This document shows positions 7,591-41,796 of a stretch of 64,000 bases of DNA, one piece after another. Location of the stretch: contig NZ_JARXRN010000016.1 in NCBI RefSeq assembly GCF_029888045.1, positions 1 through 64,000 of the forward strand, in the 5' to 3' direction. The position numbers and the translations under genes were made by a program. How positions within the stretch are numbered: the stretch's first letter is position 1; each line of letters starts with the position of its first letter. The notes beneath the pieces are model-generated. The model did no database searches and was not told where the DNA came from. It saw only the letters and a program-made list of their open reading frames with translations. Source of the stretch: Luteimonas rhizosphaericola (GTDB taxonomy: Bacteria; Pseudomonadota; Gammaproteobacteria; Xanthomonadales; Xanthomonadaceae).

Positions 7591-7669
7591 TGGTGCTGAG
7601 CTGGAACGCCGCGCGGACATCAGTGGTCGCCCACGGGCGCATCGCTGCTCGGCGGGCAGTGCGTACGCG

Positions 7670-8353
7670 TCAACGCCCCTGCACGCGCATCCGCCGCCGG
7701 ATGCGGCTCAGCGACACGGGCGTGACCCGGATGTAGCTCGCGATCTCGTGCTGCCTGAGCTGCGCGGCGATCCCGGGCATTTCCTGCAGGAACCGGGCAT
7801 AGCGGGCCTCGGGCGCGAGCATCAGCAATTCCATCTCGCGCTGCTCCTTGCGCTGGCCGTACACGCGGTAGGCATTGCGCAGGGCGCGCATCCACGGCAG
7901 GGAGTCTCCGGCGATGCGCTCGAGTTCATCTGCCGGCAGCGACGCGACGACGCAGTCCGTGCCCGCATGGGCGTCGAACGGCGCTGGCGCGCCATCGAGG
8001 CAGGCCAGGCAGGCGAACGGCACCTGCGCGGGTACGAATCCCTTCACCCACGAGGCGCCCTCCGGGGACTGGTACCGCAGGGTCAGGAAGCCGCTGGAGA
8101 CCACGTGCACGCGGCGGTCGATGGCGCCGGCCGCGAACAGCGGCGCGTCGCGGGCGAGCGTGCGCACGGCGATGCGCGCGGGCAGCGACGCATCGCGCGG
8201 CAAGGTGTCGCCCACCAGACGGTCGAAGGCGCTGAAGAAGGTCTCGCGGGCGGGTACCTCGCCGTTATCCGGGGATAATGACGCGCCCGGGTCGATCCGC
8301 GATGCTGGCGGCTCTGCCTGGAGCGAAGCCGATGCCGCGATTCCTGCTTCCAC
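7670..8353 (-). CDS. Crp/Fnr-type transcriptional regulator
   Basis: Up to 227 residues. A cyclic-nucleotide-binding-like beta domain (about 55-135) is followed by a C-terminal winged helix with LRQHEIASYIRVTPVSLSRI as the recognition helix-turn-helix (about 196-215). The start is uncertain: GTG 8353 overlaps the head of the divergent methyltransferase gene by 22 bases, whereas GTG 8215 gives 181 residues and leaves a normal divergent promoter region. Residues contacting cAMP are not evident, so the ligand is unknown. The palindrome at 8265-8278 lies between the shorter start and the divergent gene. Confidence 0.8.
   Translation of the reverse strand: MEAGIAASASLQAEPPASRIDPGASLSPDNGEVPARETFFSAFDRLVGDTLPRDASLPARIAVRTLARDAPLFAAGAIDRRVHVVSSGFLTLRYQSPEGASWVKGFVPAQVPFACLACLDGAPAPFDAHAGTDCVVASLPADELERIAGDSLPWMRALRNAYRVYGQRKEQREMELLMLAPEARYARFLQEMPGIAAQLRQHEIASYIRVTPVSLSRIRRRMRVQGR
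8265..8278. promoter_or_regulatory. Palindrome between divergent genes
   Basis: TTATCC-GG-GGATAA is a perfect 6+6 inverted repeat between the Crp-like regulator (shorter start) and the ICMT-like gene. Its AT-rich arms stand out in the GC-rich surroundings. It could be an operator, possibly autoregulatory; this is inference. Confidence 0.4.
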
Positions 8354-8793
8354 CGGTGCTGGTGCTCCTGCTGCTGGGCGTCATGTGGCTGCTCGACAGG
8401 ATGCTGCCGGCCCCTGCGCTGGTCAAACCGCTGTCCACCTGGGTGGGCGTCGCGGGCGTGCTGGCGGGGTACGCGATCGCGCAGTGGCACGTAGCGCTGT
8501 TCAAGCGCCGTGGCGCCAACGTTCCGACCTTCGGCGAGCCTTCCGAGCTGTGCGAGGCGGGCTGGTTCTCATGGACGCGCAATCCGATGTACCTCGGCCT
8601 GCTGGTGCTGCTGCTCGGCGCCGCCTGCTGGATGGGGTCGCTGGCGGCCTTCGCGGGTCCGGCGGTGTTCTTCGCCGCCGCGCACTGGGGCTACGTGCCG
8701 TTCGAGGAAGCGCGCCTGCAGGCCCGCCACGGCGCGCGCTACGCGGACTACTGCCGCCGCGTGCCGCGCTGGATCGGGCGGCGACGCGCCTGA
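8332..8793 (+). CDS. Isoprenylcysteine carboxylmethyltransferase-family membrane protein
   Basis: A 153-residue protein with hydrophobic segments at about 4-22, 28-48 and 82-115. The family signature is visible: SWTRNPMYLGLLVLLLGAA (RNPxY) and EEARLQARHGARYADYCRRVPRWI at the C-terminus (E-x5-G-x2-Y-x2-Y-x4-R-W). Relatives use SAM to methylate isoprenoid or lipid substrates; bacterial members are mostly uncharacterised. ATG 8332 with GGAG 11 bases upstream is preferred over the in-frame ATG 8278, which would overlap the palindrome. Confidence 0.82.
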   Translation: MPRFLLPPVLVLLLLGVMWLLDRMLPAPALVKPLSTWVGVAGVLAGYAIAQWHVALFKRRGANVPTFGEPSELCEAGWFSWTRNPMYLGLLVLLLGAACWMGSLAAFAGPAVFFAAAHWGYVPFEEARLQARHGARYADYCRRVPRWIGRRRA

Positions 8794-8966
8794 GGACTCC
8801 GGCTCCCGGGTGCATCCGGCATGGCGCGCCGCAGCCAAGCCGCACCCGCATCCTCAGGCCGCGCAACGCGCTGCACTCACCGCGCGATAACGTGACCGGC
8901 GCTACTGGAGTCGGGCGCCCGCGGGCGTATCGTGTGCCCTCCCCCGTCTTCCGCAGGATCGCCCGG

Positions 8967-10301
8967 ATGCGCCTGTCCCTGACCGCCCTCGCCTGCAGCG
9001 CCCTGCTGCTGACTGCATGCGACGACGTGATCGTCGAGAACCCCGCCGTCGAATACACCCCCGAGACCGCACCGGCCGCCGCCGCGACGCGGCTGGCGGT
9101 GTCGCCGCGCATCCGCGCGCAGCCCGCAGACGCGCCCGCCGCGCCCGCTGCGCCCGCTGCGCCCGCTGCGGCGCCCCGCACCCCCGCCCGCGCCCCGGCG
9201 CTCGCCGCCGAACCGCAGCGTGTCACCGGCGGCCCGGGCCCGCGGCGGCGGGTGGTCGAGCCCGATCCGCCCTTCGTCAGCACGCCGGTCGCCACGCTCA
9301 ACGAGCCATGGGCGATGGCGTTCCTGCCCGACGGCCGGCTGCTGGTCACCGAGAAGAACGGCACCCTGCGGCTGGTGAACGTGGCCACCGGCCAGGTCGG
9401 CACCATCACCGGGGTGCCGCGCGTGGCCTACGGCGGCCAGGGCGGGCTGGGCGACGTGATCCTGCATCCGCAGTTCGCTAGCAACCGCCGCATCTACCTG
9501 AGCTATGTCGAGCAGAGCGGCGCGATCTACGGCGCGGTGGTGGTCCGTGCGCAGCTGGACCTGGGCTCGGGCAACAACGGCAACCTGACCGGCATCACCC
9601 GCATCTGGGAGCAGGCGCCGAAGGTCAGCGGCCAAGGGCATTTCAGCCACCGGCTGGCGTTCGACGCCAACCGCAAGCTGTGGATCACCTCCGGCGACCG
9701 GCAGAAGTTCGACCCGGCGCAGGACATGGGCGGCAACCTCGGCAAGCTGATCCGCCTCAACGACGACGGCACCGCGCCCAGCGACAACCCGTTCTATGCC
9801 CAAGGCGGCAATGCCGCGCAGGTGTGGACGCTGGGCCACCGCAACCCGCTGGGCATCGCCTTCGACGCCGAGGGTCGACTGTGGTCGCACGAGATGGGCC
9901 CGGAGGGCGGCGACGAGCTCAACCTGATCCTGCGCGGGCGCAACTACGGCTGGCCGCTGGTATCGGAAGGCAACCACTACGGCGGCGGCCCGATCCCGCG
10001 CCACAGCACCCGTCCCGACTTCGAGGCACCCAAGGAATGGTGGACGCCGGTGATCGCGCCAGCCGGCATGATCATCTATTCGGGCAACCTGTTCCGCACC
10101 TTCAGGGGCGACGCCTTCATCGGCGGCCTGGCCTCGCAGGCGCTGGTGCGGGTGCGCTTCAACGGCACCAGCGCCTCCGAGTACCGCCGCTACGGCATGG
10201 GCCGCCGCATCCGCGACGTCGAGCAGGGCCCCGACGGCGCGATCTGGCTGCTGGAGGATGGCGGCAACGGCCGCCTGCTGAAGCTGACGCCGCCGGGCTG
10301 A
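8967..10301 (+). CDS. PQQ-type sugar dehydrogenase, lipoprotein
   Basis: A 444-residue relative of soluble aldose sugar dehydrogenase (YliI/Asd), a six-bladed beta-propeller that oxidises sugars with PQQ. It begins with a lipoprotein signal, ALLLTAC, with Cys18 followed by Asp-Asp; Asp at +2 would hold it in the inner membrane under the Lol rule. A low-complexity Ala/Pro linker spans about 55-75. The propeller then shows NEPWAMAFLPDGRLLVTEK, GLGDVILHP, GHRNPLGIAF, EMGPEGGDELNLI and YGWP motifs. The start is ATG 8967; the open frame upstream has no signal. A related enzyme with a cytochrome domain lies at 29781-31274. Confidence 0.9.
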   Translation: MRLSLTALACSALLLTACDDVIVENPAVEYTPETAPAAAATRLAVSPRIRAQPADAPAAPAAPAAPAAAPRTPARAPALAAEPQRVTGGPGPRRRVVEPDPPFVSTPVATLNEPWAMAFLPDGRLLVTEKNGTLRLVNVATGQVGTITGVPRVAYGGQGGLGDVILHPQFASNRRIYLSYVEQSGAIYGAVVVRAQLDLGSGNNGNLTGITRIWEQAPKVSGQGHFSHRLAFDANRKLWITSGDRQKFDPAQDMGGNLGKLIRLNDDGTAPSDNPFYAQGGNAAQVWTLGHRNPLGIAFDAEGRLWSHEMGPEGGDELNLILRGRNYGWPLVSEGNHYGGGPIPRHSTRPDFEAPKEWWTPVIAPAGMIIYSGNLFRTFRGDAFIGGLASQALVRVRFNGTSASEYRRYGMGRRIRDVEQGPDGAIWLLEDGGNGRLLKLTPPG

Positions 10302-21909: not shown

Positions 21910-22962
21910 ATGCCGCACTACGCGACAGCCGATGAACTGCGCGCACGCGACCTTCAGTTCGTGCGGCGCATCCACCACATGCGCATGCTCGGCACCGCAC
22001 TGTGCGCGCTGCCGATCGCTTCGGTGCTGGCCGAACGCGGCGCCGGCTGGCCGGCGTACGCGCTGCTGGCCGCCAACGCGCTGCTGTGGCCGCAGTTCGC
22101 CAACGTTGCGAGCGTCCGCGCCCGCGATCCGGTGACCGCGCAGTTCCGCTGCCTGGCGCTGGATTCGGCCGCGGCCGGCGCGTGGATCGCGGCGATGGCG
22201 GTCAGCGCCGCGCCCACCGCGCTGTTCCTGACCATGGCCACGGCCGACAAGATCGCCGCCGGCGGATGGCTGCTGCTGCGGCGTTCGACCGTGGCGCTGC
22301 TGCTGGCGTTCGCGGCGGTGTGGAGCCTGCTCGGATTTCCATGGCAACCGGAAACCTCGCACCGCACCCTGCTGCTGTGCGTCCCGTTCCTGTTCCTGTA
22401 TACGGTCGCGCTGAGCCTGGTGACCAACCGGCTGGGCAACCGGATCCGGGTGCAGAACCGCGAGCTGGAGCGGCGCAGCCGCACCGATCCGACGATGCAG
22501 GTGCCCAACCGGCCGCATCTCGAGGCGGTCGCCACGCTGGAGCTGTCTCGCTTCCAGCGCTCCGGACGTCCCGCGTCGCTGATGCTGATCGACGTCGACA
22601 ACTTCAAGACCATCAACGACCGCTACGGGCACGGGATGGGCGACGTCGTGCTCAAGCGCATCGCCGCCCTGCTCTGCGCCTCGGTGCGCGACGTGGACCT
22701 GCCGGCGCGCTACGGCGGCGACGAGTTCGCGCTGCTGCTGGTCGATACCGACATCACCCGCGCGATGGTGGTGGCCGAGCGGATCCGGCGCGAGGCCGAG
22801 CGCGAGGTGTTCGAGGCCGAACCCGGGCTGACCTGCACGCTGAGCATCGGCGTGGCCGCCGCGACCCAGGCCGACGCAACGCTCGACGCCTGGGTGCATT
22901 CGGCTGACGCCGCGCTGTACCGCGCGAAGGCGGCTGGCCGCAACCGGGTGGTGGCGGCCTGA
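21910..22962 (+). CDS. MASE2-GGDEF diguanylate cyclase
   Basis: A 350-residue protein. About six hydrophobic helices (25-175) form a MASE2-like membrane sensor. A GGDEF domain follows with RTDPTMQVPNR, IDVDNFKTINDRYGHGMGD and the signature YGGDEFA. An inhibitory I-site RDVD lies exactly five residues before GGDEF, so product feedback by c-di-GMP is expected. It makes c-di-GMP from GTP. ATG 21910 starts the conserved region. Confidence 0.9.
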   Translation: MPHYATADELRARDLQFVRRIHHMRMLGTALCALPIASVLAERGAGWPAYALLAANALLWPQFANVASVRARDPVTAQFRCLALDSAAAGAWIAAMAVSAAPTALFLTMATADKIAAGGWLLLRRSTVALLLAFAAVWSLLGFPWQPETSHRTLLLCVPFLFLYTVALSLVTNRLGNRIRVQNRELERRSRTDPTMQVPNRPHLEAVATLELSRFQRSGRPASLMLIDVDNFKTINDRYGHGMGDVVLKRIAALLCASVRDVDLPARYGGDEFALLLVDTDITRAMVVAERIRREAEREVFEAEPGLTCTLSIGVAAATQADATLDAWVHSADAALYRAKAAGRNRVVAA

Positions 22963-29780: not shown

Positions 29781-31274
29781 CTACTGCGGACGTTCCTGCT
29801 CCGCGGTGAGTCGCAGGATCTGGCCCGGGTCGTCGGTGACGAGGTAGATCGCGCCGTCCGGCCCGACCATCGGCTCGTAGGGCCGGCCCCGCGTGGTCAG
29901 CAGGACCTCCTCGTGCTGCACGCGATCGCCGTCGAGCGTCAGCAGCCGCAGCTGGCGCGGCGCGAGCGCGGTCACCAGCGCCTTGCCCCGCCACAGCGGG
30001 AACCGGTCGCCGTCGTAGAACGCCAGGCCGGACACCCCGATCGACGGACGCCAGAACCAGGCCGGCTGCTCCACGCCATCCGCGCGCCGGTCCGGCGTGA
30101 GCACGGTGCCGTCGTAGTTGATGCCGTGCGAGACCACCGGCCAGCCGTAGTCGCCGCCGCGACGGACGAGGTTGAGCTCGTCGCCGCCGCGCGGACCGTG
30201 CTCGGTGGCCCACAGCCGGCCGGTGCCCGGTTCGAACGCCATGCCCTGCGGATTGCGGTGGCCGAGGCTGAAGACGGTCGCGAGCGCGTCGGCGCGCCCG
30301 TGGAAGGGATTGTCCACGGGCGGCGCGGCGCCGGGCTGCAGGCGGTGGATCTTGCCGCTGGGGCGCCCCGGTTCGCGCGAGAGTTCCTGCGCGCCGCGAT
30401 CGCCGACCGACAGGTACAGCCGGCCCTGCGGATCGAACGCCAGGCGCCCGCCGAAATGCCAGAACGGCTCGCCATAGTGCGCGTGGTCGGCCTCGTACAC
30501 CGTCTCCTGGTCGACCCAGGCGTTGCCGCTCAATCGCCCGCGCACCACGCGCGTCATCGCCAGACGCCCGCCTTCCGGGCCGGTGGCGTCGAGCGGGTGC
30601 GCGTAGCTGAGATAGATCCAGCCGTTGCGGCCGTAGTCGGGGTCGAGCGCGATGTCGAACAGCCCCGCCTGGTTCCAGCGGTGCTCGTGCACGTAGACCC
30701 CGGGCACCCCGGTCACCGGCTGCGGCTGCAGCACGCCGCGTCGCACCACCCGCAGCCGGCCGGGACGTTCGCTGACCAGCACCGTGTCGGCATCGAGGAA
30801 GGCCATCGACCACACCGTCTCCAGGCCGTCGGCGAACAGTTCCACGCGGACCGCGTAGTCGAGGGTGTCGTGCACGCCCGGCACGGCATCGAACTCGCGC
30901 GCGGGCGCCTCCTCCGCGGCCGGCGCCTCCTCGTCGTCGGGGGCGCGATCGGCGTCGCGCGCGGGCAGCAGTTCGGCGATCGCGCCGATCTCCGCCGCCG
31001 AGAGGGTCGGCGCGAATGACGGCATCCCCTGCGAGGCGATGCCGTTGGCGATGACCCGGGCGATGTCGGCGCGGGTGCCGCCATAGCGGTAGGTCGCCGG
31101 CGACAGTGGAGGCCCCAGCCCCGTGCCCTGGCGGCCTTCGCCATGGCAGGACGCGCAGTTGCGCTGGTAGAGCGTGGCGGCATCGGTCTGGGCCGCGGCC
31201 GGGGCGGCGACGGCGGCCAGGACGCCCAGCAGCAGCGTCGGGGCCACGGACGAGGAACGGCGGACATCGGGCAT
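29781..31274 (-). CDS. Cytochrome c domain fused to PQQ-type sugar dehydrogenase
   Basis: A 497-residue periplasmic protein. After a signal peptide (ending PAAAQ) comes a c-type cytochrome domain: CASCHG haem site (about 40-45) and a distal Met near GIASQGMPSF. An acidic Ala/Glu linker spans 115-135, then a six-bladed propeller with VWSMAFLDADTVLVSERPGRL, GHRNPQGMAFEPGTG, EHGPRGGDELNLV and YGWP. The fusion suits direct electron transfer from PQQ to the respiratory chain. ATG 31274 is chosen for the signal peptide. A winged-helix regulator is divergently encoded 165 bases away. Confidence 0.9.
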   Translation of the reverse strand: MPDVRRSSSVAPTLLLGVLAAVAAPAAAQTDAATLYQRNCASCHGEGRQGTGLGPPLSPATYRYGGTRADIARVIANGIASQGMPSFAPTLSAAEIGAIAELLPARDADRAPDDEEAPAAEEAPAREFDAVPGVHDTLDYAVRVELFADGLETVWSMAFLDADTVLVSERPGRLRVVRRGVLQPQPVTGVPGVYVHEHRWNQAGLFDIALDPDYGRNGWIYLSYAHPLDATGPEGGRLAMTRVVRGRLSGNAWVDQETVYEADHAHYGEPFWHFGGRLAFDPQGRLYLSVGDRGAQELSREPGRPSGKIHRLQPGAAPPVDNPFHGRADALATVFSLGHRNPQGMAFEPGTGRLWATEHGPRGGDELNLVRRGGDYGWPVVSHGINYDGTVLTPDRRADGVEQPAWFWRPSIGVSGLAFYDGDRFPLWRGKALVTALAPRQLRLLTLDGDRVQHEEVLLTTRGRPYEPMVGPDGAIYLVTDDPGQILRLTAEQERPQ

Positions 31275-31439
31275 GGGAAAGACTCCGGTGGTCGGGACGG
31301 CACGACCGCGATCGCGCCGTCGCAAGCAGACACCGGCTCGCCGCAGCCGCGGATGGAGGGCCGCTGGAGTTCTGCTATAGATTCGATGCAGGGCGCCGCT
31401 GTGCGCCGCGGACGAGTCCGGATCCGGGGACAGGGACGG

Positions 31440-33761
31440 GTGAGCGAGCACACCGCCATCGGCAAGATCGGGCTGGCCGGCGATCCGGCCCAATGCGGCG
31501 CGCCTGCGAACTTCAGCGCCGGCGAGGCGCTCGTGCAGCCGTCGCTGAACCGGATCACGATCCACGGCCGGGTGCACCAGGTCGAGCCGAAGGTGATGCA
31601 GGTGCTGCTGCTGATGGCCGCCCGGCCGGGCACCGTGATCGCGCGCGAGGCGTTCCTCGACACGGTCTGGGCCGGCACCGTGGGCGACGACTACCTGCTC
31701 AACCGCGCCGTGTCGGAACTGCGCAAGCTGTTCGGCGACGATCCCCAGGCGCCGCGCTACATCGAAACCATACGCAAGGGCGGCTACCGCCTGATCGCCC
31801 CGATCGCGCCGGCCCGGGTCGCGGCGGCGGTGGCCGTGCCCCCCGGAGGCAGCGAAACCGTGGCCGCGTCCTTCGGGGGTGAGGCGGCACCGGGCGACGT
31901 GCCGGGTCGGCACGAGCCGCGCCGACCGGCCGGCGAGATCGCGTCTTCGGCATGGCCGCCTGATTCCGCCGCCGCAGCGTCGCTTCCCCGACGTCGGGGC
32001 CGGATGCACCTGGCCATGACGCTCGGCACCGGTGCGCTGGCGCTGGTCGCGCTCGCCGCCTGGCAGCTGCGGTCACGCGCGCCCGGCGGCGCGGCACCGA
32101 CGGCCCTTCCCCCCGCAGCCGCGCTCGAGGTGCATCCGCTGACCAGCTTCGTCGGCCTCGAACTGGAGCCGGCGCTGTCGCCGGACGGCAGCCGGGTGGC
32201 CTTCGTCTGGGACGCGGGCGGCACCTTCGACGTCTACGTCAAGGCGATCGGCAGCGAGGAGGTGCTCAACCTCAGCGACAGCCCGGACGACGAACACCAT
32301 CCGGTGTGGACGCCGGACGGCCGCGCCCTGCTGTTCGCGCGCCGCGATGCCGACGGCGTGTCGATCCATCGCGTCTCCGCGCTCGGCGGCGGTGTCACGC
32401 TCGCCTTCCGCGATCCGGCCGTGCACGAACTGCGCGGCATGAGCCTGTCTCCGGACGGCAGCCGGCTGGCGTATGCGGCACGCAGCCGCGCCGGGGAGCC
32501 CTACCGCGCGCACCTGGCCGCGCTGGATGGCAGCGGGCGCCGGGTGCTGTCGGCGCCCGCACCGGGATCGCTAGGCGATGTCGATCCCCGTTTCGCACCC
32601 GACGGTCGTTCGATCGTGTTCGCCCGCGCAGTGAACGAAGTCACCAAGGATCTGTACCGGGTGCCGGCCGACGGCGGCGACGCGATGCGCCTGACCTTCG
32701 ACCACCGCAAGATCAACGGCGTGGCCTGGGCGGGCGCGGGCGACCGGATCCTGTTCACCTCGACCCGCTCGGGACTGTATGCGCTGTGGTCGGTACACGC
32801 CGACGGCGGCGAGCCGGTGCAGGTCGCGCTGGGCAACGAGGACGTGCACCAGCCCGCGACCGCGCCCGGCGTGGAAGCGATCGCGTTCGAGCAGTGGCGG
32901 CACCGCTCGCACCTGCGCCAGGTCGACGTGGCGAGCGGTCGCGACGTCGGTGCCGGTGGCCTGCTGCAGTCCACCCGCTGGGATTCGAACCCCGCCTGGT
33001 CGCCCGACGGCGCGCGCATCGCGTTCACCTCCAACCGGGGCGGACCGCACGGCATCTGGGTGAGCCGGCCCGATGGCAGCGGCGCGGTGGAGATCGCGGC
33101 CTTCGACGGCACCTACGTCGACAACCCCGCCTGGTCGCCGGACGGGCGCGTCATCGCCTTCGATGCGAGCCCGGAAGGACGCACCGCGATCTTCGTGGTC
33201 GATGCGCAGGGAGGCGCCGCGCGACCGCTGGTCGACGGTCCCGGGGACCACCGCAATCCGGCATGGTCGCGCGACGGCGCCTGGCTCTACTTCGAATCCA
33301 ACCGCGACGGCGCCTGGCGCGCGTATGCACAGCCGGTGGATGGCGGCGATGCAGTGGTCGTGTCGCCCGGGCCGGCGGCGCATCCACGCGAGTCGCGTGA
33401 CGGGCGCCGCCTGCTGTACGCCAAGCCGGACGCGCCCGGCCTGTGGCAGGTGCCACGCGTGGACTGGAACGCGGGTGCACCACCCGGGCGCGAAACCCTG
33501 CTGATCGCCGACCTTGCTGCGCAGGACACCGGCAACTGGACGTCCTCCGGTGCCGGCGTCTACCACGTCCACCGCCCGGCCGCCGGGCCGCCGACGCTCG
33601 CGGTATGGGACGAACGCACAGGCGCGCGCACCGCGATCGTGGCGCTGGCGCCGGACTTCGAAGGCTGGGGCCTGGACCTGTCGCCGGACCAGACGCGGCT
33701 GCTGTTCTCCGAGCTGACGCTGCGCGAGAGCGACCTGCGCCTGGCGCAGCCGCGGCCGTGA
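31440..33761 (+). CDS. CadC-like winged-helix / TolB propeller membrane protein
   Basis: A 773-residue protein. The N-terminal OmpR/PhoB-type winged helix (about 15-125) shows VEPKVMQVLLLMAARPGTVIAREAFLDTVW and LNRAVSELRKLFGD..YIETIRKGGYRLI. One membrane helix follows (MTLGTGALALVALAAW, about 198-215). A periplasmic TolB/PD40-like propeller then shows repeated LSPDGSRLAYAA, AWSPDGARIAF and AWSPDGRVIAFD blades. It is likely a membrane-bound transcription activator that senses through its propeller. GTG 31440 is chosen over ATG 31386 because of a purine-rich stretch upstream; the start is uncertain. Confidence 0.85.
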   Translation: MSEHTAIGKIGLAGDPAQCGAPANFSAGEALVQPSLNRITIHGRVHQVEPKVMQVLLLMAARPGTVIAREAFLDTVWAGTVGDDYLLNRAVSELRKLFGDDPQAPRYIETIRKGGYRLIAPIAPARVAAAVAVPPGGSETVAASFGGEAAPGDVPGRHEPRRPAGEIASSAWPPDSAAAASLPRRRGRMHLAMTLGTGALALVALAAWQLRSRAPGGAAPTALPPAAALEVHPLTSFVGLELEPALSPDGSRVAFVWDAGGTFDVYVKAIGSEEVLNLSDSPDDEHHPVWTPDGRALLFARRDADGVSIHRVSALGGGVTLAFRDPAVHELRGMSLSPDGSRLAYAARSRAGEPYRAHLAALDGSGRRVLSAPAPGSLGDVDPRFAPDGRSIVFARAVNEVTKDLYRVPADGGDAMRLTFDHRKINGVAWAGAGDRILFTSTRSGLYALWSVHADGGEPVQVALGNEDVHQPATAPGVEAIAFEQWRHRSHLRQVDVASGRDVGAGGLLQSTRWDSNPAWSPDGARIAFTSNRGGPHGIWVSRPDGSGAVEIAAFDGTYVDNPAWSPDGRVIAFDASPEGRTAIFVVDAQGGAARPLVDGPGDHRNPAWSRDGAWLYFESNRDGAWRAYAQPVDGGDAVVVSPGPAAHPRESRDGRRLLYAKPDAPGLWQVPRVDWNAGAPPGRETLLIADLAAQDTGNWTSSGAGVYHVHRPAAGPPTLAVWDERTGARTAIVALAPDFEGWGLDLSPDQTRLLFSELTLRESDLRLAQPRP

Positions 33762-33774
33762 GCGGGGCCGGCGC

Positions 33775-34137
33775 CTAGGGCGCCGGTGCCAGCCGGTGCG
33801 AGGACTGCTGGCAGACCACGATCGAGTCGCCCTCGCCCGCGTCGCCGGCGGCCACCACGCGCATGCCCACCGACAGCGCGTCCACGTTCACCGGCGCGGC
33901 CGCGCACAGGTTCCAGCGCGCCGGAAGTTCCACCGACACCTGCCGCTGCGCGCCGGTATCGACCACCACGATCGCGTTGCCGTCGTAGGTCCAGGGCTGG
34001 GTGTCGATCGAGACGATCGTGCCTTCGACCACGCGCTCGCCGGCGGACGTCACGGGCGCATCCTGCACCGAGGTGCAGGCGGCGAGCGCCAGCAGCAGGC
34101 TGGACGCGATCAGGGGGCGGCAGGCGGTCCGGGACAT
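33775..34137 (-). CDS. Small OB-like lipoprotein
   Basis: A 120-residue protein with lipobox LALAAC (Cys20). The mature part is rich in beta-strand (VVEGTIVSIDTQPWTYDGNAIVVVDTG, VSVELPARWNLC, LSVGMRVVAAGDA), suggesting a small OB-type domain; two further cysteines may bridge. ATG 34137 has GAGGAG 5 bases upstream. Its stop is 14 bases from the convergent end of the TolB-type gene. Function unknown. Confidence 0.75.
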   Translation of the reverse strand: MSRTACRPLIASSLLLALAACTSVQDAPVTSAGERVVEGTIVSIDTQPWTYDGNAIVVVDTGAQRQVSVELPARWNLCAAAPVNVDALSVGMRVVAAGDAGEGDSIVVCQQSSHRLAPAP

Positions 34138-34263
34138 GGCACTCCTCATGGGTCGGAAACGGGGACGGGCGCGCCACTCTGGCACAGGCGCGTGGGGTCG
34201 CGGTGAGGACGCTTCGTCCGGCGCGTCGGGACCCGCGCAGGCGAGTCCCCGGGCCTCATGCGA

Positions 34264-36792
34264 TCAGTCCGCGGGCGCCGCGCCCCGATCGGGCGCGTCG
34301 ACAGGCCCTGCGCCCGCAGCGCTGCGCAACTCGCCCAGCGGCGGGATCACCAGCGTGGTGTATTCCTCGTACCGCGCGCCCGGCAGGTCGCGCAGGGGCA
34401 TCCGGTCGGCGCGCGGGCTTTCGATCGGCAGCCGCGCCGCCTCGTACAGGATCACCTCGTGCTCCGGCGGATACCAGAGGAGCAGCCGCTCCACGAGCGC
34501 CTGCAAGCCCTCGGGTTCGGCATGGAACCGGGTACAGGTCAGGTCGCCCGACAGCGCCACCTGCCACAGCAGGACCAGGCCGGCGGTGTCGGGTACGCGC
34601 TCGTAGTGCAGGAAGTGGGTGGCCTCCATCGACTGCACGCCGCGCTGGCCCGGGTCGATGCCGAGATCGGCGTAGAGGCAGGCTTCGGCGGAAACGCCCG
34701 GCTCCATGCGCGCCGGAATGCCCGCTTCGCGCGCCTTGCGCACCACCGCGTGCGGCACGTCGGCGAACACGCCGGGATGGCCGTAGAACACCGCGCACAC
34801 GCGCTTGCCCGCAATCACTTCGGCCATGATCGCGGCGTCGATCTCGCGGTAGGTCTGGCGCCGGTCCTTGCCGTCGGCGTAATACGCGCCGAGGTTGATC
34901 GCGTCGGGGCGGAAGCTCTGGATCATCGCCAGCGCGAACGGATCGGTCAGGCAGAACACCACCTGCGCCTCGCGGATCTCCGACAGGCAGCGCTCGCTGA
35001 CGTGGCGGCCGAACTCGATGCCGCTGCCCACCACCACCAGGCCACCGCCTTCGCGCGCGCCGGATGGCGCATCGCTGGTGCAAACGGTGCGGTCGCGGCC
35101 GTCGTACTTGGCGCGGTAGAGCGCCTGGTCGGCATCGTGCACCAGTTGCTCGAGCGTGGTCGCGTGGTCGTTGGCCTGGCAGATGCCGGCGCTGATGCTG
35201 AAATGCACGGTGTGGCCGAATACGGTCACCGGCGCGATGCGCCCGCGCAGGCGGCGCAGCAGGTCCTGGGCCTGGTCGCGGCCGCCATCGAGCAGGATCG
35301 TGAACTCGTCGCCGCCGCTGCGGCCGGCGATCCCCTGCTCACCCACCTCCTCGGCGATCCAGGTGCCGAGCCAGCGCAGGGCTTCGTCGCCCGCGGCATG
35401 GCCGTGGCGATCGTTGACCTCCTTGAAGCGGTCGATGTCGGCCACGATCGCGGTGAACGCCCGGCCTTCGCGCCGCGCGCGCTCGAACGCGGCCTCGCCT
35501 TCCCTGCGCACCTGCTGGTAGTTGAGCAGCCGGGTCAGACTGTCGTGCTCGGATTGCCAGCGGTAGCGCCGCCGCTCGCGGAACGAGCGCCGCAGCAGCA
35601 CTGTCAGCAGCAGCGCCGTGGCGAGCAGCGCCACCAGGCCGGCGGCCAGCAGCCATTGCCAGCGCCGGGTGGCGGTGACCTGCAGTGCGGCCAGTTCCTT
35701 CTCCGCCTCGAGCAGCGCGATCTGCTGCTCCTTCATCCGGGTGTCGAATTCGACCTGGAGGTAGGTGAGGCGTCGCGCGCGGGCATCGGCCTCGGCGGCT
35801 TCGGAAGCGGAAATGGCCTGCTTGAGATGCGCGAGGGCCGACGTGAGATCGCCGCGACGTTCGGCCAGCCTCGCCAGCAGGTGTTCGGTTTCGGCGATGG
35901 CGAGGCTGGATTCCTGCTCGCGGTAGTAGCGCAGGGTATCGGCCAGCAATTGCTGGGCGTGGTCCAGATCCCGGTTCGAGACGATCAGGCTTTCCGCGAT
36001 GACCAGGCGCGTGCTCCAGGCGCCCGCCGCGTAGCCCGCGGCCTCGAACTCGGACAGCGCTTCGCGGCCCCAGGTCCAGGCCTCGTCATGGCGGTCCTGC
36101 CGCGCCGCCATCTTGGCCACGCCGTACTTGCCCAGCGCGACGAACACGGGATCGCCGGCACGCCTGCAAGCGTCGATCTGGCGATGTCGCCACTCCTCCG
36201 CGACGCTGTAATTCCGGGCGTGGTCCTCGGCCAAGGCCATTTCCGACAGCGCCACGCACTGGCCCCTCACGTCGTCCGTCGCCTCGATGGCGTCGACCGC
36301 GCGGCGCGCCAGGTTCCGCGCCTTATCGGTTTCCCCCACCAGCGTATGCAGGTAGCTGGCGGTCCCGAGCAGGTTGGGGGCGTGTTCCGGGGCCTCGGGC
36401 AGGTACGACAGGCCCTCGTTGAGCCAGGTGAACGCCCGCGACCAGTCCTCGATGTTGGCCGCCACGCTGATGGCGGTCCCGTAGATCCTGATCCGCAGCG
36501 CCGCGGGCATCTCCTCCGACAGCAGGTCGGCAAGCCCTTCAAGCGCCTCCTTCGACCCGCCGGCAAGCGCCATGTTGCGCAGCCGGACGTACTCGATCCG
36601 CTGACGCTGCCCGGTCGACAGCTGCCCGGCCTGCGAGGCCAGGGCGGCGATCCTCTCGTTCGATTCCCGCCAGTGCGCGGTGAAGGCGAGCGTCTCGATC
36701 TCGCTGACGCGCGACTCGAGGTTGTCCTGCGCGAACGCCGGCAGCAAGACCAGCGCGAGAAGCAGGAATGAAAGCTTGCTCAGCCGATCCAT
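34264..36792 (-). CDS. TPR sensor / GGDEF / borosin-type N-methyltransferase fusion
   Basis: An 842-residue protein. Residues 1-22 are a signal peptide, 30-370 a helical TPR-like periplasmic sensor, and 379-400 one membrane helix. GGDEF domain spans 412-572: HDSLTRLLN, ADIDRFKEVNDRHGHAAGD and signature SGGDEF at 492-497. The inhibitory RxxD is absent at the expected place (484-487). From 582 to about 818 lies a tetrapyrrole-methylase-fold domain like bacterial split-borosin methyltransferases (SonM): VVVGSGIEF, DRRQTYREI (Arg/Tyr at 644-648), FYGHPGVFADVP (669-680), MEPGVSAEACLYADLGIDPG (696-715) and QSMEATHFL. It should methylate peptide-backbone amides with SAM. It is encoded 28 bases after its putative substrate peptide. 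The GGDEF part may make c-di-GMP. Confidence 0.88.
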   Translation of the reverse strand: MDRLSKLSFLLLALVLLPAFAQDNLESRVSEIETLAFTAHWRESNERIAALASQAGQLSTGQRQRIEYVRLRNMALAGGSKEALEGLADLLSEEMPAALRIRIYGTAISVAANIEDWSRAFTWLNEGLSYLPEAPEHAPNLLGTASYLHTLVGETDKARNLARRAVDAIEATDDVRGQCVALSEMALAEDHARNYSVAEEWRHRQIDACRRAGDPVFVALGKYGVAKMAARQDRHDEAWTWGREALSEFEAAGYAAGAWSTRLVIAESLIVSNRDLDHAQQLLADTLRYYREQESSLAIAETEHLLARLAERRGDLTSALAHLKQAISASEAAEADARARRLTYLQVEFDTRMKEQQIALLEAEKELAALQVTATRRWQWLLAAGLVALLATALLLTVLLRRSFRERRRYRWQSEHDSLTRLLNYQQVRREGEAAFERARREGRAFTAIVADIDRFKEVNDRHGHAAGDEALRWLGTWIAEEVGEQGIAGRSGGDEFTILLDGGRDQAQDLLRRLRGRIAPVTVFGHTVHFSISAGICQANDHATTLEQLVHDADQALYRAKYDGRDRTVCTSDAPSGAREGGGLVVVGSGIEFGRHVSERCLSEIREAQVVFCLTDPFALAMIQSFRPDAINLGAYYADGKDRRQTYREIDAAIMAEVIAGKRVCAVFYGHPGVFADVPHAVVRKAREAGIPARMEPGVSAEACLYADLGIDPGQRGVQSMEATHFLHYERVPDTAGLVLLWQVALSGDLTCTRFHAEPEGLQALVERLLLWYPPEHEVILYEAARLPIESPRADRMPLRDLPGARYEEYTTLVIPPLGELRSAAGAGPVDAPDRGAAPAD

Positions 36793-36820
36793 GGGCCTGC
36801 AACGGTTCAGTGCACGAGGG

Positions 36821-37039
36821 CTATTTCTCGTAGCACTTGATGCTGTGGTTGGTCGCGAACTGCCCGTCCTTCAGGCCCGTGAGGGCCTTGATCGCGGTGT
36901 AATCCTTGTCCAGCATCGCCTGGCGCTCGTCGTCGGCCAGCCCGGCGCGCTGCATCACTCCGTCCGGATCCTTGTCGTACTCCGCGGCAAAGGCCGCATC
37001 GCTGCCAAGCTTGCGCATCAGTTCGAGCAGTTTCGACAT
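36821..37039 (-). CDS. Putative split-borosin precursor peptide
   Basis: A 72-residue peptide. Residues 1-55 form a helical borosin-binding-type domain: LLELMRKLGSDAAFAAEY, DPDGVMQRAGL, DDERQAMLDKDYTAIKALTG. The order and spacing match SonA of Shewanella (LGQDA, Y-x3-P-x2-VM-x2-HGL, then the helix with KTLSG). The remaining C-terminal segment, KDGQFATNHSIKCYEK, would be the core that is N-methylated. ATG 37039 is chosen because AGGGGG lies 7 bases upstream; ATG 37045 is too close to it. It is directly upstream of the methyltransferase fusion gene on the same strand. Confidence 0.82.
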   Translation of the reverse strand: MSKLLELMRKLGSDAAFAAEYDKDPDGVMQRAGLADDERQAMLDKDYTAIKALTGLKDGQFATNHSIKCYEK

Positions 37040-37653
37040 GGACATCCCCCTGAATCGACCAGGCATCGTGACCGCGCGGGCATCCGCTGACGCCTCGCCG
37101 GAACCCCACCACACAGGCCCCGCGCACGCGTTGTCCCCGGGGCGCCGAGCAGCGCGACATTAGCATAGGTTCCCGGCCGCGGTGGCGACATCCGGCCCTC
37201 GCGCGCGCAGCCGGTGCCGCCTAGCTGCACGTGTCCGGTCGCGCGCGATTTTGACGTTGCGCGGGGTCGTCGGGACGCGGGGCCACCTCGTCCAATCGAC
37301 CTTGATCCGCTGGAGCGTCCTGTGTCGCCGCCGGCCCCGTCGCTCTGGTGCAGTGCACCCGGATGCCGCTGCCGCCATTCCAATCCCGCCGTCCGTGATT
37401 CGAAATGCAGACGCGGGTCGCTGCCCGGTCGGCGTGCTACGAGTGCGTGGCGGGAGCCGGTTTCCCCTGCGGTCCGGGGGTCTCCCCGTCCCGGCGGCAG
37501 GACGGATACGCGCGTCGCGCGGCTTCGCCCAGTCCATTGGCCCGCTCCGGCACGTCGACGCGACCGCGGCTTTTGGACAGACTTCGCCCGACCCGATGCC
37601 AGCCGCGCGCCGCCGCGTTCGCGCGGCACGCCCCGAACGAGGACCGACCCCGC
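37040..37653. other. 614-base intergenic region, divergent promoters
   Basis: No supported gene; the open frames seen on both strands lack protein-like sequence. It separates the minus-strand borosin operon from the plus-strand GH51 gene, so both promoters should lie here. An AT-rich patch near 37159-37167 stands out. No clear operator for the GH51 gene is seen. Confidence 0.6.
37162..37190 (-). promoter_or_regulatory. Candidate promoter of the borosin operon
   Basis: On the minus strand, TGTCGC (37190-37185) and TATGCT (37167-37162) are separated by 17 bases, a sigma70-like arrangement with a weak -35. It lies about 120 bases before the precursor gene and is one of the few AT-rich spots in the region. 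It is tentative. Confidence 0.35.
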
Positions 37654-39192
37654 ATGACCGCCCTGACCGCTCTGCGCACCACCGCCTGCACCCTGCTGCT
37701 GTCCGCCGCCGCACCGCTCGCCTTCGCCGGCAGCGTGACCGGACGGGTCGATGCCGGGCAGCCCGGGCCGGTGATTGCGCCCGAACTCTACGGCCAGTTC
37801 ATGGAGCAGCTGGGCACCGGCATCGACGGCGGCATCTGGGTGGGCCCCGACTCGGACATCCCCAACACCCGCGGCTACCGCAACGACGTGCTCGCCGCGC
37901 TGAAGGAGCTCAAGGTGCCGGTGCTGCGCTGGCCCGGCGGCTGCTACGCCGACATCTACGACTGGCGCACCGGCATCGGCCCGCGCGCGAAGCGGCCGGT
38001 CACGCTCAACCGCTGGTGGGGCAACAAGGAGGAGCACAACGCCTTCGGTACCCACGAGTTCTTCGAGTTCGCCGAACTGGTGGGCGCCAAGACCTTCCTC
38101 AACGTCAACGTGGGCACCGGCACCCCGCGCGAGGCCGCGCAGTGGGTCGAGTACATCACTTCGCCCACCAACTCGACGCTGGCGCAGGAGCGGCGGCGCA
38201 ACGGTCGCGAGCAGCCGTGGAAGATCGACTTCCTCGGCATCGGCAACGAACCCAACGGCTGCGGCGGGCGCATGCGCGCGGAGACCTTCGCCGACCTGTT
38301 CCGGCAGTACTCCGGTTTCATCGCGCCGCACGGCGGCACCACGATGATCGCATCGGGCCCCGACGCGACCGATCCGGCCTGGACCCGCACCACGATGGAG
38401 ATCGCCGGCGAGCACCTCGACGCGTTCTCGATGCACTACTACACCCTGCCCACCGGCGACTGGACCACCAAGGGCCCGGCGACCGGGTTCGGCGAACCGG
38501 AATGGCGCGCGACGTTCGAGCGCACCTACATGATCGAGCCGATGATCCAGGAACAGACCGCGATCATGGACGAGTTCGACCCCGAGGCCGAGAAGGCGCT
38601 GGTGATCGGCGAATGGGGCACCTGGTACGACCCCACCCCCGGCTCGCCCGGCGGCTGGCTGCAGCAGCAGAACAGCATCCGCGACGGCCTCGTGGCGGCG
38701 GTCAACCTCAACATCTTCCACCGCAACGCGAAGCGGCTGCGTGCGGCGGGCATCGCGCAGATGGTCAACGTGCTGCAGGCGATGCTGCTCACCGACGGCG
38801 CGAAGATGGTGCGCACGCCCACCTACCATGCCTTCCGCATGTACCGGCCCTTCCAGGGTGCGACCTCGCTGCCGCTGGCGCTGCGCTCGCCGGACTACGG
38901 CAGCCTGAAGGCGGTGGATGGCACGGCCGCGCGCGGCAGTGACGGCAAGCTCTACGTGGCACTGGTCAACCTCGATCCGGGCGAGGCGATGGACGTGTCG
39001 CTGGCGCTCGAAGGCGCCCAGGCCACGCGGGTATCCGGCGAACTGCTGACCGCCGACGGACTCGACGCGCACAACACCTTCGATGCCCCCGAGACCGTGC
39101 GACCGGTCGCCTTCGACGGCGCACGCCTGGCGGACGGCACCCTGTCGGCCCGCCTTCCTGCCAAATCGCTGGTCGTGCTGACGCTCGAATAA
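37654..39192 (+). CDS. GH51 alpha-L-arabinofuranosidase, exported
   Basis: A 512-residue glycoside hydrolase with a signal peptide (CTLLLSAAAPLAFAG). YGQFMEQLGTGIDGGIWVG and LRWPGGCYADIYDW are GH51 signatures. The acid/base Glu is E199 in GIGNEPNG and the nucleophile E320 in VIGEWGTWYD. A C-terminal beta-sandwich follows. It removes terminal arabinofuranose from arabinoxylan or arabinan, probably in the periplasm. It fits with the beta-helix protein and sugar dehydrogenases nearby as plant-polysaccharide functions. ATG 37654. Confidence 0.92.
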   Translation: MTALTALRTTACTLLLSAAAPLAFAGSVTGRVDAGQPGPVIAPELYGQFMEQLGTGIDGGIWVGPDSDIPNTRGYRNDVLAALKELKVPVLRWPGGCYADIYDWRTGIGPRAKRPVTLNRWWGNKEEHNAFGTHEFFEFAELVGAKTFLNVNVGTGTPREAAQWVEYITSPTNSTLAQERRRNGREQPWKIDFLGIGNEPNGCGGRMRAETFADLFRQYSGFIAPHGGTTMIASGPDATDPAWTRTTMEIAGEHLDAFSMHYYTLPTGDWTTKGPATGFGEPEWRATFERTYMIEPMIQEQTAIMDEFDPEAEKALVIGEWGTWYDPTPGSPGGWLQQQNSIRDGLVAAVNLNIFHRNAKRLRAAGIAQMVNVLQAMLLTDGAKMVRTPTYHAFRMYRPFQGATSLPLALRSPDYGSLKAVDGTAARGSDGKLYVALVNLDPGEAMDVSLALEGAQATRVSGELLTADGLDAHNTFDAPETVRPVAFDGARLADGTLSARLPAKSLVVLTLE

Positions 39193-39439: not shown

Positions 39440-40489
39440 TCAGCCGCCCGCGAACACCGGCGCAAGCAGGCGCAGCGTCCCCGCATCGGCGTCGAGTTCC
39501 ACCTCGCCGCCGACCGGCAGGATGAACTGTTCGCGGATGTGGCCGATCATCGCCCCGGTGTAGGCGGGAATGCCGAGCGGCACGATGAAATCGTCGAGGA
39601 TCTGCGCCAGCGTCAGCGAGCCGTAGCCATCGCCCGGGTCGCAATCGGTGCATTCGCCGAACACGAAGCCCGCGATGCGGTCGAGCACGCCCATCAGCTT
39701 GAGCGTGGTCAGCATGCGGTCGACCCGGTACGGCGCCTCGGACACGTCTTCCAGGAACAGGATCGCGCCATCGAAATCCGGCAGGTAAGGTGAGCCCGCC
39801 AGCGCGGTGAGCACGGTGAGGTTGCCGCCCAGCAGCCGTCCGCGCGCCTGGCCGGGCACCAGCGTGCGGGTGCGGTTGCGGCGCGGCACCAGCTCGTCGC
39901 CGGCCTCGATCCGGTTCTCGTAGTGCATCAGCTCGCGCTCGAAGAACACGCGCCGGAACTGGTCGGCGTTGAAGCGGTTCCAGCTGCCGGTACCGATGGG
40001 CCCATGGAAGGTCACCAGCCCGGTGCGCGCCTGGATCGCGCAGTGCAGCGCGGTCACGTCCGAATAGCCGAGCAGCGCCTTCGGGTTGCCGCGGATGGCC
40101 TCGTAGTCCAGCAACGGCAGCAGGCGCGCCGCGCCGGAGCCGCCCCGGGTGCAGACGATCGCGGCCACGTCCGGGTCGGCGAACGCCGCATTGAGGTCAC
40201 CCGCGCGCTCGGCATCGCTGCCCGCGAGGTGGCCGCGGCGCTCCGCGTAATGCGCGCCCGTGACCACGCGCAGCCCCAGCGCTTCCATCACTTCGCGCGC
40301 GAGCTGCAGGTCGAGCGGATCGGATACGGCCGAGGACGGGCTGACCAGCGCCACGGTGTCGCCGGGCGCCAGCGGCCGCGGCAGCAGGCGCTGCGAAATC
40401 GCGTCCGCACGCGCGGCCAAGCCGATGCCTGGCAGCAGCGCACTCGCCGCCGCCACCGTAGCCGAACCGAGGAAGTGTCGCCTGCGCAT
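39440..40489 (-). CDS. LD-carboxypeptidase (S66 family), exported
   Basis: A 349-residue serine peptidase that trims muropeptide tetrapeptides. The N-terminus RRRHFLGSATVAAASALLPGIGLAA carries a twin-arginine-like signal. The nucleophile Ser lies in LLGYSDVTALH, with Glu in LFLEDVSEAPYRVDRML and His in AMIGHIREQF, completing the S66 triad. The export signal is unusual because E. coli LdcA is cytoplasmic. Confidence 0.9.
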   Translation of the reverse strand: MRRRHFLGSATVAAASALLPGIGLAARADAISQRLLPRPLAPGDTVALVSPSSAVSDPLDLQLAREVMEALGLRVVTGAHYAERRGHLAGSDAERAGDLNAAFADPDVAAIVCTRGGSGAARLLPLLDYEAIRGNPKALLGYSDVTALHCAIQARTGLVTFHGPIGTGSWNRFNADQFRRVFFERELMHYENRIEAGDELVPRRNRTRTLVPGQARGRLLGGNLTVLTALAGSPYLPDFDGAILFLEDVSEAPYRVDRMLTTLKLMGVLDRIAGFVFGECTDCDPGDGYGSLTLAQILDDFIVPLGIPAYTGAMIGHIREQFILPVGGEVELDADAGTLRLLAPVFAGG

Positions 40490-40800
40490 GCCCTGCCCTC
40501 ATCGAGTGGAGGCGCGAGGGTAGCAACCGGAGGGCGCCGGCGACAGCGCGACCGACGGCTGCGCAGCGCTTCCGCGTCGACGCAACGCACCGGGGAGACG
40601 GAACAATTCGAGACGATGCCGCACGGCAACCGTGGCCGCCCGGGCCTGCGATGCCGGATGACATTCCCAAGCAGCAGACCGACGCCAGGGAAAAATCGCG
40701 ACCGGCTGCGTCGCACCGGCCTCCAGGCCCTGCGACGGGCTGGGCGGCGACCGGTGTCACGGCCCGGTGCCGCGCCCCGTCCCACGCGCCGGCCGCGGTC
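40490..40800. other. 311-base intergenic region
   Basis: It lies between the LD-carboxypeptidase start and the stop of the GGDEF gene, both on the minus strand. No gene, repeat or clear operator is seen. It should contain the LD-carboxypeptidase promoter. Confidence 0.5.
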
Positions 40801-41796
40801 TCAGGCCGGCACCCCATCGGCGTCAGCCGTGGTGGTGCGGTTGCGCCCTGCCCGCTTGGCGCGGTACATCGCCGCGTCCGCGCGCGCCAGCCACTCCGCG
40901 GCCGCTTCGCCGCCGCGGTGCGTGGCGGCGCCGAGCGAGATGGTGACCGTGCGGCCGCGGCACTGGACCCCCGTTTCCACCGCCGTGCGCAGCTTTTCGG
41001 CGATCGCCCACAGCGCGTCGCCACTCGCCCCGGGCAGCAGCAGGGTGAACTCCTCGCCGCCCAGGCGGAAGAAGCGGTCGTTGGCACGCGTGTTGCCGCG
41101 CACCACCGTGGCCAGCTGCACCAGCACGTCGTCGCCGGCCTCGTGGCCGAACGCGTCGTTGATGGCCTTGAAGTGATCGATATCGAAGATCAGCAGGCCG
41201 AGCGGCGTGGCCTGGCGCTCGCTGGTGTTGATGGCGGCCTGCAGTTCGAGTTCGAGCCCGCGCCGGTTGCCGGCACCGGTCAGCGGATCGTGCAGCGCGA
41301 TCGCCTCCAGTTGCGAGCGCTGCAGCTCCGCGCGCGAGGCGAACACGAACGAGAACAGGCTGACGACGATCGCGGTCACGAGGAACAGGACCTTCTCCAG
41401 CGGCGTGGCCAGCGCGGCATCGCTCGCGGCCACGGCTGCCATGGCGCCGCCGGAGATCAGCAGCGCAGGCCAGCGCCGGATCAACAGGAAATTCGCGACC
41501 AGCACCGGGTACACCCACAGCAGGCCCGGCAGGCCGCCCAGATGCGCCACCGCGACGCACCCCAGCGAGTAGGTCGCCGCGAGGAACGACGCCGCGCCCG
41601 CGGTGCGGCCGGTGCGCCAGGCGTACAGCGCGGCGCCGACGATGCTGGCCACGATCACCAGGTCGATGAGCGCGATCAGGTATTCGCCACGCAGGTACCG
41701 GTAGACACCGAACGGGCTGATGCCGAGCACGGTGATCGTGCCGAACATCACCACGATGCCCAGGTGGAAGTCCACCCTCAGCCGGTTGCTCCACAT
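40801..41796 (-). CDS. Membrane GGDEF diguanylate cyclase
   Basis: A 331-residue protein with about six hydrophobic helices (10-160) and a C-terminal GGDEF domain: HDPLTGAGNRRG, FDIDHFKAINDAFGHEAGDD and signature LGGEEF. RAND, a perfect I-site (RxxD), precedes it by five residues, so feedback inhibition is expected. Start MWSNRLRVDFH at 41796; the frame upstream is unlike the family. Confidence 0.9.
   Translation of the reverse strand: MWSNRLRVDFHLGIVVMFGTITVLGISPFGVYRYLRGEYLIALIDLVIVASIVGAALYAWRTGRTAGAASFLAATYSLGCVAVAHLGGLPGLLWVYPVLVANFLLIRRWPALLISGGAMAAVAASDAALATPLEKVLFLVTAIVVSLFSFVFASRAELQRSQLEAIALHDPLTGAGNRRGLELELQAAINTSERQATPLGLLIFDIDHFKAINDAFGHEAGDDVLVQLATVVRGNTRANDRFFRLGGEEFTLLLPGASGDALWAIAEKLRTAVETGVQCRGRTVTISLGAATHRGGEAAAEWLARADAAMYRAKRAGRNRTTTADADGVPA

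Follow-up and report, generated by a model that had tools for sequence, protein, structure and literature searches.

The closest described counterpart of the locus analyzed here is the type IV split borosin system SonM/SonA of Shewanella oneidensis (PMC8429565), with which it shares the key active-site residues named in an excerpt of that paper and a separate precursor peptide of roughly 70 aa whose leader has five helices; in the genus nearest to SonM, the loci also contain a downstream GGDEF gene. Unlike SonM, the Luteimonas methyltransferase is fused to a TPR-GGDEF sensor and has a predicted membrane anchor, the precursor has a core sequence other than that of SonA, and the gene order is precursor followed by enzyme. 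The fused borosins of fungi, typified by OphMA, contain a homologous methyltransferase, but there enzyme and core peptide form a single polypeptide, whereas the peptide is separately encoded here. Membrane sensors of the TPR-GGDEF type have the repeat domain, the membrane helix and the GGDEF domain in common with the Luteimonas protein, which adds a C-terminal methyltransferase and a partner peptide. Peptide-pheromone receptors of the Rap/RRNPP group reside in the cytoplasm and have no membrane helix, in contrast to the TPR protein of Luteimonas, and the resemblance of the latter to Rap receptors is unspecific, other TPR proteins scoring as high or higher in structural similarity.

The window, that is, the whole analyzed stretch of 64,000 nucleotides from a Luteimonas rhizosphaericola contig, encodes the precursor and the fusion protein as neighboring genes on the minus strand, the precursor first, with a spacing of 28 bp. 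The features of the locus and its surroundings are as follows (window coordinates; basis of the assignment in parentheses):

29781-32009, minus strand: glucose/sorbosone dehydrogenase with cytochrome c (Pfam)
31143-33761, plus strand: winged-helix regulator with PD40 propeller (Pfam)
34264-36792, minus strand: predicted TPR-TM-GGDEF-borosin methyltransferase fusion, 842 aa (ORF, Pfam, SonM match, model)
34324-35046, minus strand: predicted SonM-type alpha-N-methyltransferase domain, residues 583-823 (SonM match, active-site residues)
35047-35082, minus strand: variable linker, residues 571-582 (alignment of fusions)
35083-35550, minus strand: GGDEF domain, residues 415-570, with SGGDEF intact and RxxD absent (Pfam, motif check)
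35587-35661, minus strand: membrane helix, residues 378-402, followed by RRSFRERRR on the predicted cytoplasmic side (sequence, model)
35857-36726, minus strand: predicted periplasmic TPR solenoid, residues 23-312 (Pfam, model)
36727-36792, minus strand: hydrophobic segment of the export type at the N-terminus, residues 1-22 (hydropathy 1.84 at residue 4)
36821-37039, minus strand: SonA-like borosin precursor, 72 aa (ORF, SonA match, fold model)
36824-36871, minus strand: predicted core tail of the precursor, residues 57-72, KDGQFATNHSIKCYEK, the candidate methylation region
36881-37039, minus strand: leader or borosin-binding domain of the precursor, residues 1-53, a predicted five-helix bundle (model and Foldseek)
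37046-37051, minus strand: AGGGGG, presumably a ribosome-binding-like motif, ending 6 nt before the annotated precursor ATG
37405-39192, plus strand: alpha-L-arabinofuranosidase (Pfam)
39440-40489, minus strand: LD-carboxypeptidase (Pfam)

Pfam searches with the 842-aa protein detected the GGDEF domain (residues 415-568, 6.3e-34) and TP_methylase (residues 585-786, 6.4e-18), and the TPR_12 match was sub-threshold (21.3 bits, with a cut-off of 30.1). The model of the full protein (mean pLDDT 82.4) contains TPR-like helices at residues 41-312 and an unbroken predicted helix at residues 316-415 that includes the membrane segment; given the pTM of 0.47, the arrangement of the domains in this model is not reliable. 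The export-type N-terminus was judged by hydropathy. A simple rule based on hydropathy placed a membrane segment ahead of the GGDEF domain in 43 of the 44 fusions collected in the survey described below, but an N-terminal hydrophobic segment in only 30. The motifs GG[DE]EF and DxDxFKxxND, which we take to be those of a diguanylate cyclase, the latter binding metal, are both present in all 44 fusions, and the GGDEF domain is predicted to make c-di-GMP. The RxxD inhibitory site, which is optional in the GGDEF family, is absent from every fusion (the quartet in the window is GEQG). Among the partner cyclases of unfused loci, this site is present in 48 of the 63 located downstream of the methyltransferase and in 4 of the 17 located upstream; its absence from the fused cyclases, as opposed to its frequent presence in the downstream ones, suggests different feedback. 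The linker between the cyclase and the methyltransferase ranges from 9 to 20 residues among 43 aligned fusions. Apart from the fusion, the window has two GGDEF matches, at 22393-22962 (plus strand) and 40750-41382 (minus strand), with one TGA inside each matched stretch.

The best solved relative of residues 583-823 is SonM (7ltc, 2e-68), to which the domain is 47% identical; the match to OphMA is at 4e-37. The Pfam TP_methylase model is a general one that covers tetrapyrrole/cobalamin methylases and borosin enzymes alike, and thus fits equally a methylase of the former kind, unrelated to peptides. Against this assignment, the curated NCBIfam models for precorrin-3B methyltransferase (19.1 of 391 bits) and YabN (24.6 of 525) scored far under their cut-offs, every one of the 25 solved sequences with a match of 1e-20 or better is a borosin enzyme, and a precursor gene adjoins the methyltransferase. 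The tetrapyrrole/cobalamin identity is refuted at the sequence level, the curated family models not being passed, and we consider it exceedingly improbable. The equivalents of SonM residues Y58, R67, Y71, Y93, F99, E146, W166 and Q167 are identical in all 44 fusions, and the equivalent of E173 is D in all of them. As described in an excerpt of PMC8429565, Y58, R67, Y71 and Y93 of SonM matter by mutation, and the first three of these stabilize the core amide. Homology to OphM/SonM and conservation of the residues stabilizing the core amide, which are expected of a split borosin enzyme, indicate that the C-terminal domain is almost certainly a SonM-type borosin methyltransferase; its likely substrate is the adjacent SonA-like peptide, which it would methylate on backbone nitrogens.

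Residues 1-57 of the 72-aa peptide align to SonA (7ltc_B, E 1.2e-5), and the structure model of the peptide is a five-helix bundle (residues 3-53) followed by a disordered tail. In a Foldseek search with this model, the top 29 rows were all SonA chains, 21 of them at an rmsd of 1.3 Å or less, with E-values of 0.019 at best. The locus thus has the separately encoded precursor with a borosin-binding domain that typifies split borosins. An alternative start of the precursor gene lies two codons further upstream (ATG TCC ATG), and the region 33700-37400 yielded neither a sigma-70-like promoter nor a terminator. Among 43 precursors from 42 fused loci, the tail residues in common are F/Y61 (43), T63 (37), N64 (37), H65 (30), I/V67 (43), A69 (37) and Y70 (42). 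A precursor search of the window's own genome produced one strong match, that of the window itself, besides two weak hits with E-values of 0.06 and 0.40. At one other fused locus (L073, 2688-3212), a second precursor-like gene lies 3 kb upstream of the fused gene. The preliminary description of the window had reported these two ORFs and had read the larger one as a chain of export signal, periplasmic TPR-like sensor, membrane helix, GGDEF domain and borosin-type alpha-N-methyltransferase, and the smaller one as a SonA-like precursor; these readings held, with the N-terminus assigned by hydropathy and the TPR_12 match under the threshold.

The domain combination goes beyond a chance occurrence: with a threshold of 1e-10, the methyltransferase region has at least 318 protein matches, and among the matches listed, 120 of 120 homologues combine TPR, GGDEF and methyltransferase. 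In the family to which the window belongs, the methyltransferase was detected in 90 of 247 genomes, with 18 matches at least 68% identical to the query. Of these, 17 lie in open frames of at least 842 residues and the other at a contig end; identity then drops to 54% for the next match. We assembled 144 loci: the window and the best 80 of 171 confirmed relatives from one scan of named genomes; 40 of the 76 lower-identity places (54% or less) in the family search; 20 places from phylum and class searches; and three from the Natronospira order. As these loci were picked by similarity and by choice, the fractions below are not population frequencies. The methyltransferase is fused to GGDEF in 44 loci, accompanied by a GGDEF gene upstream in 17 and downstream in 63, and without one, by our rule, in 20; an adjacent GGDEF was defined as the nearest one on the same strand within 2.6 kb (80 of the 144 loci). 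The TPR part is in the same frame in 43 of the 44 fused loci, and a precursor was found in 42, the remaining two starting at contig ends. Among the bacteria carrying the fusion are Luteimonas, Pseudoxanthomonas, Thermomonas, Dokdonella and the betaproteobacterium Rubrivivax. Thus, the genome survey for this architecture called for in the preliminary description showed that it recurs and is not unique to the window.

The 20 loci without an adjacent GGDEF consist of three kinase operons, three contig ends, three cases with GGDEF nearby but outside the rule, nine distant methyltransferases and two plain exceptions (L125 and L198). The rule missed a GGDEF at 3.06 kb in L150 and one on the other strand in L167; L158 was scored as lacking one despite a GGDEF 1594 bp downstream because an overlapping opposite-strand ORF was nearer. 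L125 contains three precursor genes around one methyltransferase (7606-9372), and no GGDEF was found in this 16.7 kb locus.

In Wenzhouxiangella, Thiolapillus, Chromatiaceae, Sedimenticola and others, precursor, TPR-GGDEF protein and methyltransferase are encoded, in this order, by three neighboring genes, and the existence of such operons among the unfused relatives explains the fusion. In the phylogenetic tree, the 44 fusions fall within one group of 62 rows (SH-aLRT 100, quick method) together with the precursor-sensor-methyltransferase operons and the kinase operons; L074 and L093, the two unfused rows that the tree places among the fusions, are fragments at contig ends. Two duplicates, L181 (of L118) and L202 (of L174), were left out of the tree and are included in the count of 144. 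Lysobacteraceae and Rhodanobacteraceae mostly show the order methyltransferase, precursor, GGDEF gene. Across the 100 unfused loci, the strand of the methyltransferase carries 0.176 GGDEF per kb up to a distance of 2.6 kb, versus 0.017 per kb farther away (both strands), so the association between GGDEF and the methyltransferase is local. A Pfam TPR was absent from five of ten sampled partner cyclases, all five from loci of the methyltransferase-first order.

The association extends to the closest relatives of SonM. In the genus that harbors them, presumably Shewanella, judging from identity to SonM and from the peptides, the gene was detected in 34 of 40 genomes. We examined 20 of these 34, and the order methyltransferase, precursor, GGDEF was found in all 20 further loci; L163, L168 and L169, counted separately, each have an adjacent GGDEF as well. 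The enzyme of 7 of the 20 loci is 263 aa long, the length of SonM, and several have SonA-like tails; in three loci of this genus, identity to SonM is 78, 69 and 68%.

In the Natronospira order, the methyltransferase is present in 4 of 19 genomes, and in all four a TPR-HisKA-HATPase-REC protein replaces GGDEF beside it; in L202, a TPR-GGDEF gene also adjoins, besides the hybrid kinase. With the TPR region of the L201 kinase as the query, the best match was a methyltransferase-linked TPR in five of five genomes searched, and six of seven matches were of that kind, although the genome of the window by itself has 29 other regions matching the fusion protein, almost all of them in the GGDEF part; judged by these matches, the TPR hybrid histidine kinase belongs to the same sensor lineage. 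A protein search with this region yielded only the self-match among the candidates scored. While the output varies, the sensor, the precursor and the methyltransferase stay, and these three make up the constant unit.

Two further arrangements were seen among kinase-associated loci. In L203 (2926-10520), a precursor, a TPR hybrid kinase, a methyltransferase, a second precursor and a second TPR hybrid kinase are arranged in tandem. In Natronospira (L106, 1928-2470, plus strand), a SonA-like leader is encoded in frame with a response-regulator receiver domain, upstream of the precursor, TPR hybrid kinase and methyltransferase genes; the leader-like domain was recognized at 5e-13 by a model from which this protein had been excluded. 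An internal methionine precedes the receiver domain, so that leader and receiver might at times be produced separately. Among 11 candidates, a protein search with the leader part retrieved no protein other than this one.

Co-variation of core and TPR was considered as support for a ligand-receptor relationship, and it was not singled out, the core tracking GGDEF better. Over 41 loci, the partial correlation of core and TPR given GGDEF was -0.12 (p 0.90), and that of core and GGDEF given TPR was 0.34 (p 0.0015); core and TPR given the methyltransferase gave 0.18 (p 0.03), and core and methyltransferase given TPR gave 0.09 (p 0.18).

On balance, we favor an account in which a split-borosin system is built into a predicted membrane signaling protein, the precursor being methylated and its state read through the sensor. 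The five-helix leader of the precursor would dock on the methyltransferase domain, by analogy with SonA on SonM, and the C-terminal tail would be methylated in the cytoplasm, at the membrane. The state of the peptide, whether docked, methylated or released as a ligand, would then be read via the sensor and the long helix, and reported by the output domain, usually through c-di-GMP synthesis. Because the sensor, GGDEF and the methyltransferase recur together in many bacteria, including the relatives of SonM, the peptide likely works in cell signaling, and a dedicated signaling role for the sensor-peptide-methyltransferase module is probable. The direction from peptide to output is put forward more tentatively, and is favored because the exchange of the cyclase for a histidine kinase leaves the association of sensor, peptide and methyltransferase intact. 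It is unlikely, in our estimate, that bacterial split borosins are autocrine signals, with the N-methylated peptide as the ligand of the neighboring membrane TPR receptor, c-di-GMP or a phosphorelay as the output, and the maturation enzyme fused to its own receptor in Luteimonas and its kin. No export signal is apparent from the sequence of the precursor and the TPR part is predicted to be periplasmic, so a role as ligand would need release and passage across the membrane.

A constant unit with a varying output is expected of a peptide-responsive sensor family, but also of a sensor that gates the modification of the peptide. In the latter case, a periplasmic signal or c-di-GMP would switch the dimeric methyltransferase, and the methylated peptide would be a downstream product with a target of its own. 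The unbroken predicted helix joining the sensor and the cyclase and the short linker to the methyltransferase would fit such control, and diguanylate cyclases work as dimers. SonM, too, acts as a dimer, according to an excerpt of PMC8429565. However, the methyltransferase is a separate protein in the unfused operons, and where a kinase replaces the cyclase, c-di-GMP would drop out as the common controller; we consider sensor-gated modification somewhat unlikely and prefer the peptide-responsive reading. The fusion could also reflect nothing more than co-expression, with two neighboring operon genes joined and the cyclase and methyltransferase working independently at one address, as its confinement to one branch of the tree and the variable linker (mean identity of 18%) would allow. 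The association nevertheless outlasts two gene orders, the fusion and the output swap, and spans Lysobacteraceae, Rhodanobacteraceae, Wenzhouxiangellaceae, the SonM-like genus and Rubrivivax, which makes this explanation quite improbable. Finally, the locus might be a borosin natural-product pathway making an antibiotic or toxin-like peptide, with production merely regulated by the cyclase; fungal borosins include the nematicidal omphalotins and the antineoplastic gymnopeptides, as mentioned in an excerpt of PMC8429565. In the fused clade, however, the variability of the core exceeds that of the leader only slightly (1.20 vs 1.03 bits). Around the 44 fused loci, 31 of which had 3 kb of sequence on either side, no other gene family was shared by more than 8, so that a conserved gene for export, proteolysis or immunity did not emerge. 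We regard such a pathway as very improbable.

In the literature searched, no work joining an alpha-N-methyltransferase and a diguanylate cyclase was found, nor any account of a kinase in place of the cyclase, of the common sensor lineage or of the association in the SonM relatives, the type-defining papers lying outside that literature. The link to membrane signaling suggested in the preliminary description is supported by comparative genomics, namely the adjacent GGDEF genes, the tree group, the lineage of the kinase TPR and the SonM-like genus. Its statement that no system with a methyltransferase-diguanylate cyclase fusion had been described is weakened by the Figure 1 legend of a 2024 paper, PMC11395268, which names GGDEF among the domains of borosin architectures and takes the borosin types from Imani 2022 and Cho 2022; the bare fusion is thus probably already in print.

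An excerpt of PMC8429565 states that no split-borosin pathway has yet been tied to a final natural product. With a recurrent membrane sensor whose output can be swapped, found also with the closest relatives of SonM/SonA, the purpose of bacterial borosins becomes testable.
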